This document shows, piece after piece, positions 10,709 to 15,387 of a DNA stretch of 64,000 nt (its first letter is position 1; each line of letters starts with the position of its first letter). Both the position numbers and the translations under genes were made by a program. The notes beneath the pieces were generated by a model. The model made no database searches. It saw nothing but the letters and a program-made list of their open reading frames with translations, and was not told the DNA's origin. Origin of the DNA: Cytobacillus oceanisediminis 2691 (lineage in GTDB: Bacteria > Bacillota > Bacilli > Bacillales > Cytobacillaceae); NCBI RefSeq assembly GCF_007678455.1, contig NZ_VEEP01000005.1:46380-110379 (forward strand), written 5' to 3'.

Positions 10709-11233
10709 ATGCTGAAAAAGCTGCTGGGAATAGACAAAAAGATGCTGTTATTCATTGGTGTGTTCGCTGGAATCATTGTTTCGGTCGTCACTGTCAAGAC
10801 ACTCGCTTATACGGATTCACCTGAATTCTGTTCAAGCTGCCATATCATGACAGAGGTCCATGACTCGTTTTCCGATTCCAACCACGCCGGTCTGGCCTGC
10901 GGGGACTGCCATTTGCCACACGAGAATATGGTCAAAAAATATACCTATAAGGCAAAGGCGGGCATGACACATGTGTATTTCAATACACTAGGGGAAGCAA
11001 AAATACCGAAGGTGCTCCACGCAACAGAAAGCTCTGACGAAGTCATAAATGAAAACTGTATCAGCTGCCATGAAAATACACTGGAAAATATATCGCATGA
11101 TGCCAAAGACAGCTGTTCAAGCTGCCACCAGGCAGTGCCGCATGGAAAAGGCTTCAAGACAGAGGATTATTTTAAACCGCCTAAACCAGGCGAGCTTTTA
11201 GAGAAAAAAGGAGGTACGATGAACAATGGCTAG
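10709..11233 (+). CDS. nrfH: Cytochrome c nitrite reductase small subunit NrfH
   Basis: A 174-residue NapC/NirT-family tetraheme cytochrome. After one membrane helix (about residues 11-32) it has four CXXCH sites: CSSCH at 41, CGDCH at 64, CISCH at 117 and CSSCH at 136. The first reads CSSCHIM, and the following methionine fits the unusual CXXCHXM heme of NrfH. It oxidises menaquinol and passes electrons to NrfA outside the membrane. The start follows GGGAGG; nrfA begins before this gene ends (8-nt overlap). It needs the Ccm machinery encoded just upstream. Confidence 0.95.
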   Translation: MLKKLLGIDKKMLLFIGVFAGIIVSVVTVKTLAYTDSPEFCSSCHIMTEVHDSFSDSNHAGLACGDCHLPHENMVKKYTYKAKAGMTHVYFNTLGEAKIPKVLHATESSDEVINENCISCHENTLENISHDAKDSCSSCHQAVPHGKGFKTEDYFKPPKPGELLEKKGGTMNNG

Positions 11234-12659
11234 AAATTTCCGCTGGGCATATTTGCTCCTTGCGGCTGTCATGCTCATCATTACAGGCTGCTCCAGCTCG
11301 GATGAAGAAGCCACTTCAGCCAGTGAGCTAAAAACGGGGCTTAGCAAAGATGAAATCAGCAATGAAGCCTTCAAGGATCTTTTCCCGCTTCAATATGACA
11401 GCTACAAACAAAACGAAAAGATGGAAGACACAAAATACAGCGGTTCCGTGAAACGAAGCAAATTCGACCATGACAAGGAACCGTATTTGCCAGTCCTTTT
11501 TAACGGCTATGGCTTTGCGACTGAATACAATGAAGATCGCGGCCATATTTACGCGAATGAGGACGTCCGGGCGATCGCGAGGATCACTGACAAGTCGGTC
11601 GGTTCCTGCTTGACATGTAAATCGACTGCCGTACCGCACATGATCGAGGAAATGGGTGACGATTACTGGAGCGGCAATTTTAACAAAGACATCTGGCCGA
11701 AAGCAGAAGCAATGGGCCATTCGCCAATCGGCTGTTCAGACTGCCATGATCCGCAGACGATGGATTTGCGCGTCACACGCCCAAGCTTCATCAAGGCAAT
11801 GGAATCACAGGGCATCGACATGTCCAACCCAACAAAGAATGACATGAGGAACTATGTTTGCGGACAGTGCCACGTAGAGTACTACTTTGCAGCTGACAAT
11901 AGTGAAGTTACCTATCCTTGGGCGAATGGATTCAAGCCTGAAGATATGTATGAATACTATGAGACAACTGCCAAGGAACAAGGTTTTGAGAAAGACTGGG
12001 TTCACAATATTTCCGGAACGCCAATGCTGAAATCCCAGCACCCTGACTTTGAGACACATATCGAAGGTCCGCATGGCGAGGCTGGAGTCACATGTGCAGA
12101 CTGTCACATGCCATATGACAGAGTAGACGGCAAAAAGAAAATCAGTTCACACTGGTGGACATCGCCTCTGAAGACAATGGATCAATCCTGCGCAACCTGC
12201 CATACCAACAGGGATATGGATGAGCTGAAAGAACGCGTAATCGGTATTCAGGATACTCATATGGAAGCCCTTCATAAGGCAGAGGATATTTCGATTACCT
12301 CACACTATTACGTGAATAAGATGATCACATCAGGAGTAAGCGAAGAAAAAATAAAGCAGGCTCAGGAGCATATCAGAAAAGGACAATGGTTCTGGGATAT
12401 CGTAGCGGCTGAAAGTTCGGCTGGTTTCCATAATCCGCAGGGATCAATGGATTCATTGAGGATTTCGACTGAAGAATCAAACGCAGCCATCAATATTGCC
12501 ATCGAAGAATTGACCAAAAAAGGCGTCAATTTAGAAGAGGTCAAGACAGAGATTGAAAAGGTGAAGAAGGCTGTTTACGACGAAAAAGATAACTTCAAGA
12601 AGAAAGACAAAGCAATCAACAGTTACTTCCCGGCCCAACAGCCAGCTCCAAAAAAATAG
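11226..12659 (+). CDS. nrfA: Ammonia-forming cytochrome c nitrite reductase NrfA
   Basis: A 477-residue pentaheme enzyme that reduces nitrite to ammonium with six electrons. Heme sites are CLTCK at about residue 128 (the active-site heme with lysine ligand), CSDCH at 170, CGQCH at 212, CADCH at 290 and CATCH at 322. It carries a lipoprotein signal (LIITGC, Cys22), so it is probably lipid-anchored rather than free, as suits a Gram-positive cell. GGAGGT precedes the start within the end of nrfH. All catalytic motifs look intact. With NrfH it gives dissimilatory nitrite ammonification. Confidence 0.97.
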   Translation: MARNFRWAYLLLAAVMLIITGCSSSDEEATSASELKTGLSKDEISNEAFKDLFPLQYDSYKQNEKMEDTKYSGSVKRSKFDHDKEPYLPVLFNGYGFATEYNEDRGHIYANEDVRAIARITDKSVGSCLTCKSTAVPHMIEEMGDDYWSGNFNKDIWPKAEAMGHSPIGCSDCHDPQTMDLRVTRPSFIKAMESQGIDMSNPTKNDMRNYVCGQCHVEYYFAADNSEVTYPWANGFKPEDMYEYYETTAKEQGFEKDWVHNISGTPMLKSQHPDFETHIEGPHGEAGVTCADCHMPYDRVDGKKKISSHWWTSPLKTMDQSCATCHTNRDMDELKERVIGIQDTHMEALHKAEDISITSHYYVNKMITSGVSEEKIKQAQEHIRKGQWFWDIVAAESSAGFHNPQGSMDSLRISTEESNAAINIAIEELTKKGVNLEEVKTEIEKVKKAVYDEKDNFKKKDKAINSYFPAQQPAPKK

Positions 12660-14725: not shown

Positions 14726-14763
14726 AAAATATGCATTTTTTCTCGATAAAAAATGCATATTTT
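14726..14763. promoter_or_regulatory. Perfect 16-bp inverted repeat upstream of the CueP-like gene
   Basis: AAAATATGCATTTTTT is followed by a six-base spacer and its exact reverse complement. It ends 29 bp before a TATAAT at 14793. It could be a regulator site for the CueP-like gene or an A/T-rich terminator hairpin. Confidence 0.5.
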
Positions 14764-14828
14764 GCATCTAATATAGGAATGTGGGATTATGATATAATCA
14801 TACTTTGAAAGATAAGGGGGTGAATGGG

Positions 14829-15356
14829 TTGAAATTTAAAATTCTAGGAATGGCGTTTTTGGCTGCAGGACTGTTAACTGCCTGCAATGGCGGAGAAAAA
14901 TCTGCTGAACCTGAAAAACAACAACAAAACATCAAGGAATTGGTGAGTGATTACAGCGCGGGCAAAAACAAGGACCACAAGGCATCCATCACCTCACATG
15001 AGCTGACGATTGCTGACAGTGAAGGGGACAAGCAAGTCTATGACATCTCAGAAGAAGACTTCTTCGTCTCAATCGCACCTTATGAAAATCAAACCCATCC
15101 TTGAACGAATCATAGCTTGACAGGTTGTCAAGGTGAATTGGTTGAAAAAGAGTTTGATGTATATATTGAGGATGAGGAAGGAAACGTAGTTGTTGACGAG
15201 AAGATGATGTCCCAGCCGAATGGCTTCATCGATTTATGGCTTCCGCGTGATAAAAAGTACAAAACAAAGATTGGATATGACGGTAAAAGTGTTGAATCAG
15301 AAATATCCACTTTTGAAAACGATGCGACCTGCATCACGACCATGCAGTTAATGTAG
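14829..15356 (+). CDS. CueP-like lipoprotein with in-frame TGA at a conserved cysteine (candidate selenoprotein or nonsense mutant)
   Basis: Reading from TTG 14829 (AAGGGGG site upstream) gives a lipoprotein signal ending LLTAC, then a CueP-family domain. The frame meets TGA at 15102-15104 and continues in the same frame for 83 more codons to TAG. The join reads THP-TGA-TNHSLTGCQGEL, where CueP proteins have a cysteine after HP; eight residues on is the next conserved Cys, and a third (ATCITT) is near the end. CueP binds copper outside the membrane. Directly after the TGA is a hairpin (15116-15132). This is either selenocysteine, a recent nonsense mutation, or a sequencing error. No length change is needed, which argues against a frameshift. 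Confidence 0.7.
15116..15132 (+). other. Hairpin after the in-frame TGA, possible bacterial SECIS
   Basis: CTTGACA pairs perfectly with TGTCAAG over seven base pairs around a GGT loop. The loop starts 18 nt after the TGA. Bacterial selenocysteine insertion elements are stem-loops shortly after UGA, with a small loop having a G in its first two positions. The stem also encodes a conserved protein segment, so the match could be chance. Confidence 0.4.
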
Positions 15357-15360
15357 ACGA

Positions 15361-15387
15361 AAGCGCCTTTTCAGGTGCTTTTTTTGT
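15361..15387 (+). terminator. Intrinsic terminator after the CueP-like gene
   Basis: An eight-base-pair stem (AAGCGCCT with AGGTGCTT) is followed by seven T residues. Confidence 0.9.

Follow-up and report, generated by a model that had tools for sequence, protein, structure and literature searches.

The cueP-like gene of this locus raises a direct question: what does the cell make of an in-frame TGA that stands where the CueP family has a cysteine? The window, meaning the whole 64,000-nucleotide stretch that was analysed, comes from a 4.9-Mb draft genome of Cytobacillus oceanisediminis 2691. Its frame at 14829-15356 runs from a TTG start to a TAG stop and contains a single internal stop, the TGA at 15102-15104, in the context THP-TGA-TNHSLTGCQGEL; the frame is thus open on both sides of the TGA, as an earlier note on this DNA had read it. 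Judged from sequence evidence, insertion of selenocysteine (Sec) at residue 92 appears nearly certain, and the product is very probably a selenocysteine-containing CueP lipoprotein anchored at the outer surface of the cell membrane. The features of the locus are as follows.

14732-14757, no strand: 26-bp palindrome upstream of cueP, a possible operator (copies in the genome and loci of the genus compared)
14814-14820, plus strand: ribosome-binding site AAGGGGG, assigned by eye
14829-15356, plus strand: cueP coding sequence through the TGA, 175 aa, with a lipoprotein signal and lipobox Cys19
15102-15104, plus strand: TGA, proposed selenocysteine codon, residue 92 (from the frame and the loci of relatives)
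15116-15132, plus strand: SECIS-type hairpin CUUGACA-GGU-UGUCAAG, 7-bp stem, loop at 15123-15125 (from the fold and the loci of relatives)
15126-15128, plus strand: codon of conserved Cys100, which aligns with Cys104 of Salmonella CueP
15330-15332, plus strand: codon of conserved Cys168
15359-15382, plus strand: intrinsic terminator-like hairpin (one found versus 0.5 expected in shuffles)

Several lines of evidence place the protein in the CueP family on both sides of the TGA. Read through with Cys, it matches Pfam PF21172 with an E value of 3.3e-44 (150.3 bits, cut-off 27), and each half matches separately (2e-8 before the TGA and 1.5e-27 after it), bearing out the claim that the residues around the TGA are the CueP core. 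The NCBIfam model NF038094 is passed (188.8 bits, cut-off 60), and the cut-off of 195 of the metallochaperone exception model NF038095 is not reached (146.7 bits). The other two family cysteines, which had also been claimed, are kept at residues 100 and 168, and the first of the three conserved cysteines is the TGA; the protein would have the family's three cysteines only if Sec stands for Cys. By eye, the N-terminal region has the lipobox LTAC with Cys19; the mature chain, calculated with Cys for Sec and no lipid, would weigh about 17.7 kDa.

Salmonella enterica CueP (PDB 4gqz, PF21172, NF038094, NF038095) is the closest characterized comparison. It is alike in sequence (phmmer E 1.4e-31) and shares the fold, the THP-x-xNHSL-GCQGE core, and three aligned Cys positions. 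The predicted structure of the window protein, with Cys modelled in place of Sec, matches 4gqz_A in Foldseek with an E value of 5.4e-15 and a TM-score of 0.75 by query length; block 91-100 has a mean pLDDT of 73, lower around the site. Residues 92, 100, and 168 align with the three cysteines of 4gqz, and their derived equivalents, with the 161-residue chain taken to end at residue 179, are Cys96, Cys104, and Cys172. The two proteins differ in that Salmonella CueP has Cys at the first of these sites, whereas the window has TGA/Sec, and in that Salmonella CueP is periplasmic, whereas the window protein is a Gram-positive lipoprotein that falls below the NF038095 cut-off.

The palindrome upstream, TGCATTTTTTCTCGATAAAAAATGCA, has no other copy in its own genome with up to 3 mismatches allowed, and was rejected as a regulon mark on account of this single copy. 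Among the 21 loci of the genus it is exact in 13, has 1 mismatch in 3 and 4-5 mismatches in 3, and is absent from 2 (L050 and L097).

Conservation of the TGA in relatives was followed at increasing distance. The identical TGA is present in G075, a one-contig genome of the same species, and all 21 cueP loci of the genus have TGA, so that close relatives do not all carry TGC or TGT. CueP matches were found in 107 of 193 genomes of the same family; of 110 loci taken, 108 cover the site (L131 and L132 miss it; neither the fragments in G140 and G141 nor separate second pieces were taken individually), with TGA in 91, TGT in 13, and TGC in 4. An even sample of the order has CueP matches in 88 of 397 genomes. 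Combining the family loci with the order-sample loci and removing two duplicates gives 190 mapped loci, of which 123 have TGA, 48 TGT, 18 TGC, and 1 TAC. The TAC belongs to L273 (G350:C1:355353-356441), a second cueP copy in a genome that lacks selA; this copy is decayed, and its Cys100 codon reads TGA. Beyond the order, a sample of the phylum has CueP in 9 of 398 genomes and TGA only in the two from the window's genus.

A set of named organisms, made up of the best 80 of 431 confirmed matches and overlapping the family set, has TGA in 50 of 80 loci, all 50 with the full hairpin stem described below. The genera with TGA in this set include Mesobacillus, Cytobacillus, Neobacillus, Robertmurraya, Litchfieldia, Schinkia, Ammoniphilus, Salipaludibacillus, and others, and the nearest named relatives of the gene among the matches listed are Mesobacillus selenatarsenatis, M. 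boroniphilus, M. subterraneus, and Bacillus sp. ISL strains, by which the genome would lie close to Mesobacillus. One record, L133, is titled Chryseobacterium sp. ISL-80 and holds a Mesobacillus-like cueP with 91% identity; the title looks wrong for the sequence. Some genomes have several TGA copies, with three in G182 (L048, L053, and L070) and two each in G007, G097, G220, and G346. Matches to CueP occur in 22 plasmid records, all with <60% identity, and the one examined is a Cys form; among viral contigs, 14 stretches fit a pattern and none was confirmed as CueP.

Selection on the downstream part was estimated from 14 loci of the genus. The dN/dS ratio is ∼0.09 past the TGA and 0.15 ahead of it, which indicates that the part past the TGA is under selection as protein. 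In L046 (G070) and L164 (Mesobacillus boroniphilus JCM 21738), the cueP frame ends 28 codons past the TGA and the remainder lies in another frame, through decay or assembly error. That the window's gene is simply broken, by a recent nonsense mutation or a base-call error as the earlier note had allowed, has a negligible probability: by the standard code the TGA is indeed a stop within the frame, and other loci hold copies that are decayed or have a broken frame (L273, L046, and L164), but a base-call error is contradicted by the TGA of G075, a recent mutation by the 123 TGA loci and the low downstream dN/dS, and both by the tie of the TGA to a hairpin and to the Sec machinery.

The hairpin lies just downstream of the TGA and has a strict form. 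Bacterial SECIS elements are recognized as a hairpin just behind the UGA, with a G in the apical loop, a GGU loop, and a set spacing. The Escherichia coli fdhF gene has an in-frame UGA and a GGU-tip hairpin whose loop also begins 18 nucleotides after the UGA. In its loop and its spacing the cueP hairpin fits a bacterial SECIS, and all 123 TGA loci have GGT 18 nucleotides after the TGA together with the full 7-pair stem; the full stem occurs in 4 of 66 Cys loci (L056, L081, L234, and L263). The selD gene of the same genome likewise has an in-frame UGA and, behind it, a GGU-tipped hairpin, although the tip is further away: its 7-bp hairpin has GGTT at the tip ∼32 nucleotides after the TGA, with a predicted loop of GTT.

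The codons of Leu97 and Gln101 are TTG/CAA in 110 TGA loci and CTG/CAG in 13, with no mixed pairs, and both changes are synonymous; either combination is found in 17 of 66 Cys loci. Those of Thr98 and Cys100 in the TGA loci are ACA/TGT in 118, GCA/TGT in 3, and GCA/TGC in 2. At codons +6, +7, and +8, the synonymous entropy is 0, 0, and 0.12 bits in 121 TGA loci and 1.58, 1.96, and 0.97 bits in 65 Cys loci. RNAalifold recovers exactly this 7-bp stem from 107 distinct TGA sequences, at -7.85 kcal/mol, and no structure from 65 distinct Cys sequences. The covariation term for the TGA sequences is +0.28, which is no bonus, because most stem pairs never vary.

To control for the protein motif, synonymous codons were drawn with the usage of the Cys set; the full stem arises in 1472 of 24600 draws and the stem with the GGT loop in 330 of 24600, and the motif SLTGCQ itself favours stem formation. 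The window sequence alone folds moderately, with a z score of -1.89 and 9 of 200 shuffles as good. Rfam gave four chance-level matches at the cueP hairpin (up to E 5) and no SECIS; this blank is uninformative because the selD site of the same genome is likewise without a match. The 64-kb window was also scanned for TGA codons that are flanked on each side by 50 or more open codons and accompanied by a hairpin with a GGT loop and 6 or more pairs; the cueP TGA is the sole candidate.

The genome also has the means to insert Sec. All the components that the earlier note had named as a check are there: selB (361.7 bits), selA (568.4 bits), and selD (397.3 bits) all score above curated cut-offs, and ARAGORN detects two tRNA-SeC genes with anticodon TCA, both above the Rfam cut-off. 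The selD gene adjoins selA and has its own in-frame TGA, in the context LSTKAGUGCKI. The two tRNA-Sec genes (G000:C332:406070-406162 and G000:C332:395489-395581) are identical over the tRNA and lie 10.6 kb apart, and the same-species genome G075 has one above the cut-off; the duplicated pair may mark an island inserted at tRNA-Sec.

Across relatives, the TGA form follows this machinery. The tRNA-Sec and selB models match other tRNAs and elongation factors below their cut-offs, as they also do in the controls, and the counts are of matches above the cut-off only. Among 179 genomes with mapped CueP, 117 have the TGA form, and selA is above the cut-off in 115 of these; the two exceptions are incomplete assemblies (G179, 81%; G183, 80%) in which selB and tRNA-Sec both exceed the cut-off. 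The 61 Cys-only genomes comprise 24 with selA above the cut-off, 13 with selA only below it, and 24 with none, and the first group indicates that Sec is not required wherever it is possible. Eight Cys genomes of the family without selA have neither selB nor tRNA-Sec above the cut-off. Fisher's test of the TGA form against selA in the 179 genomes gives p 5e-20, a nominal value because the genomes are related. A reassigned genetic code was set aside, as the TGA form goes with the Sec machinery and the hairpin.

It is conceivable, though very improbable, that the UGA is passed by another route, either leaky termination or insertion of another amino acid, and that the hairpin is regulatory or serves some other purpose. 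The modest stability of the single-sequence hairpin would fit such a route, and residue 92 is assigned from the sequence. On the other hand, every intact locus without TGA has Cys instead (66 of 66), the genomes without Sec machinery among those examined have only Cys forms, and the GGU loop and its spacing are as in a bacterial SECIS. Selenocysteine at the conserved cysteine, as first proposed for this TGA, is supported by the SECIS-type hairpin, the synonymous compensatory changes, and the tracking of the Sec machinery. The UGA at 15102-15104 would be read as Sec by SelB and tRNA-Sec, directed by the hairpin 12 to 28 nucleotides downstream.

The site appears to have switched repeatedly between the Sec and Cys forms. 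A quick protein tree of 183 loci, built with the site masked, requires at least 18 changes of the site label, 7 of which are forced by starred branches; the mean for shuffled labels is 54. The hairpin is whole or nearly whole in the Cys loci L049, L056, L057, and L081, all from selA genomes, and is kept in the Cys locus L263, whose genome has selA only below the cut-off. Such loci look like recent Sec-to-Cys conversions, and the consulted part of an earlier survey reports remnant SECIS-like structures after conversions of this kind (PMC1794560). Three Cys homologues of the same class (L299-L301) are one pair short of the stem, so the SLTGCQ motif may also ease the Cys-to-Sec change. Because it combines a covarying hairpin with repeated Sec/Cys switches, the family is a good case for the study of Sec gain and loss.

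What Sec might do here is suggested by the copper chemistry of the family. CueP reduces Cu(II) while forming a disulfide. Salmonella CueP is described, in the portions of the reviews consulted, as a periplasmic copper-binding protein that makes the cell tolerant of copper and provides SodC with the metal, its Cys and His residues being gathered on one face (PMC7558416, PMC9470648), and Cys104 is needed for the CueP copper phenotype in the consulted portion of another (PMC13201067). By analogy, Sec92 would be one of the clustered surface Cys and His residues with which CueP binds copper. Its selenolate could act as electron donor to Cu(II) and form a Se-S bond with either Cys100 or Cys168; a pairing of Sec92 with one of these cysteines, in Cu(II) reduction or Cu(I) binding, is proposed because Salmonella CueP binds copper, needs Cys104, and reduces Cu(II). 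Alternatively, the selenolate could bind Cu(I) directly. Compared with Cys, Sec would be expected to make Cu(II) reduction faster or Cu(I) binding tighter. The chances of the redox role are about even, those of a role mainly as copper ligand are somewhat lower, and the two overlap.

A different view accepts Sec insertion but holds that the main substrate is silver, mercury, peroxide, or selenium compounds rather than copper. This is unlikely, yet it draws on the lack of a conserved copper-gene neighbour among the proteins scanned and on the many selenoproteins of one group that are tied to resistance against heavy metals or metalloids, mercury and arsenic among them, in the consulted part of a recent inventory (PMC13188914). 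Against it stand the descriptions of CueP as a copper protein in the same portions of the reviews cited above (PMC7558416, PMC9470648, PMC13201067) and the one Cys-CueP relative that adjoins a copper ATPase gene.

The Sec form of CueP seems to have been overlooked so far. An inventory of May 2026, which covers 119 families and subfamilies of prokaryotic selenoproteins (PMC13188914), does not name CueP, PF21172, or NF038094 in the portion consulted. Table 1 of that source, as far as it was consulted, does list Sec in copper-named proteins, namely a CopZ-type (2Fe-2S) protein and the SO_0444 Cu/Zn efflux transporter; these differ from cueP, which encodes an extracytoplasmic CueP fold, by domain (cd10141 and NF033936) and by motif. 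Term searches of PMC12013277 and PMC9312934 returned no CueP selenoprotein. In the open-access papers searched, CueP in connection with selenocysteine or selenoproteins led only to one unrelated paper, and wider searches gave no pertinent title among those listed; an earlier annotation in subscription papers, supplements, or RefSeq records is conceivable. The window protein has no match to any separate selenoprotein model in NCBIfam (June 2026). The order was credited with 3 selenoproteins of 3 families in the part of the 2006 survey consulted (PMC1794560). If the selenocysteine reading is true, Sec-CueP adds a selenoprotein family to Bacillales, with the TGA form in 117 genomes of the searched samples, and links copper handling outside the cell with selenium; a further implication is that the cueP genes of TGA genomes may be annotated as truncated or broken.

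A broader proposal, tentative and with slightly less than an even chance of holding in full, is that Sec-CueP is a widespread overlooked Bacillales selenoprotein whose surface selenolate carries out copper chemistry, either reducing Cu(II) or binding Cu(I) tightly, and that tolerance of copper would therefore depend on the supply of selenium. Sec-CueP would then partly explain the retention of Sec machinery in many of these bacteria, and the SLTGCQ codons, being near to a SECIS, would have eased the repeated Cys/Sec switch.

The genes around TGA-cueP were compared by a Pfam scan of 15 proteins from 9 named TGA loci and 5 in the window. They include one SelO, one two-component pair, and one protein with a copper amine oxidase N-terminal domain, the rest being mixed; no shared or copper-handling neighbour partner was found among the proteins scanned, which neither support nor refute a copper role. 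On a Staphylococcus equorum plasmid (NZ_CP068578.1), an unannotated Cys-form CueP-like stretch (L305:601-942) lies right before a gene for a copper-translocating P-type ATPase. In the window, genes for a NapC/NirT-type cytochrome and cytochrome c552, resembling the NrfH/NrfA nitrite reductase, occupy 10709-12659, upstream of the MFS gene that precedes cueP.
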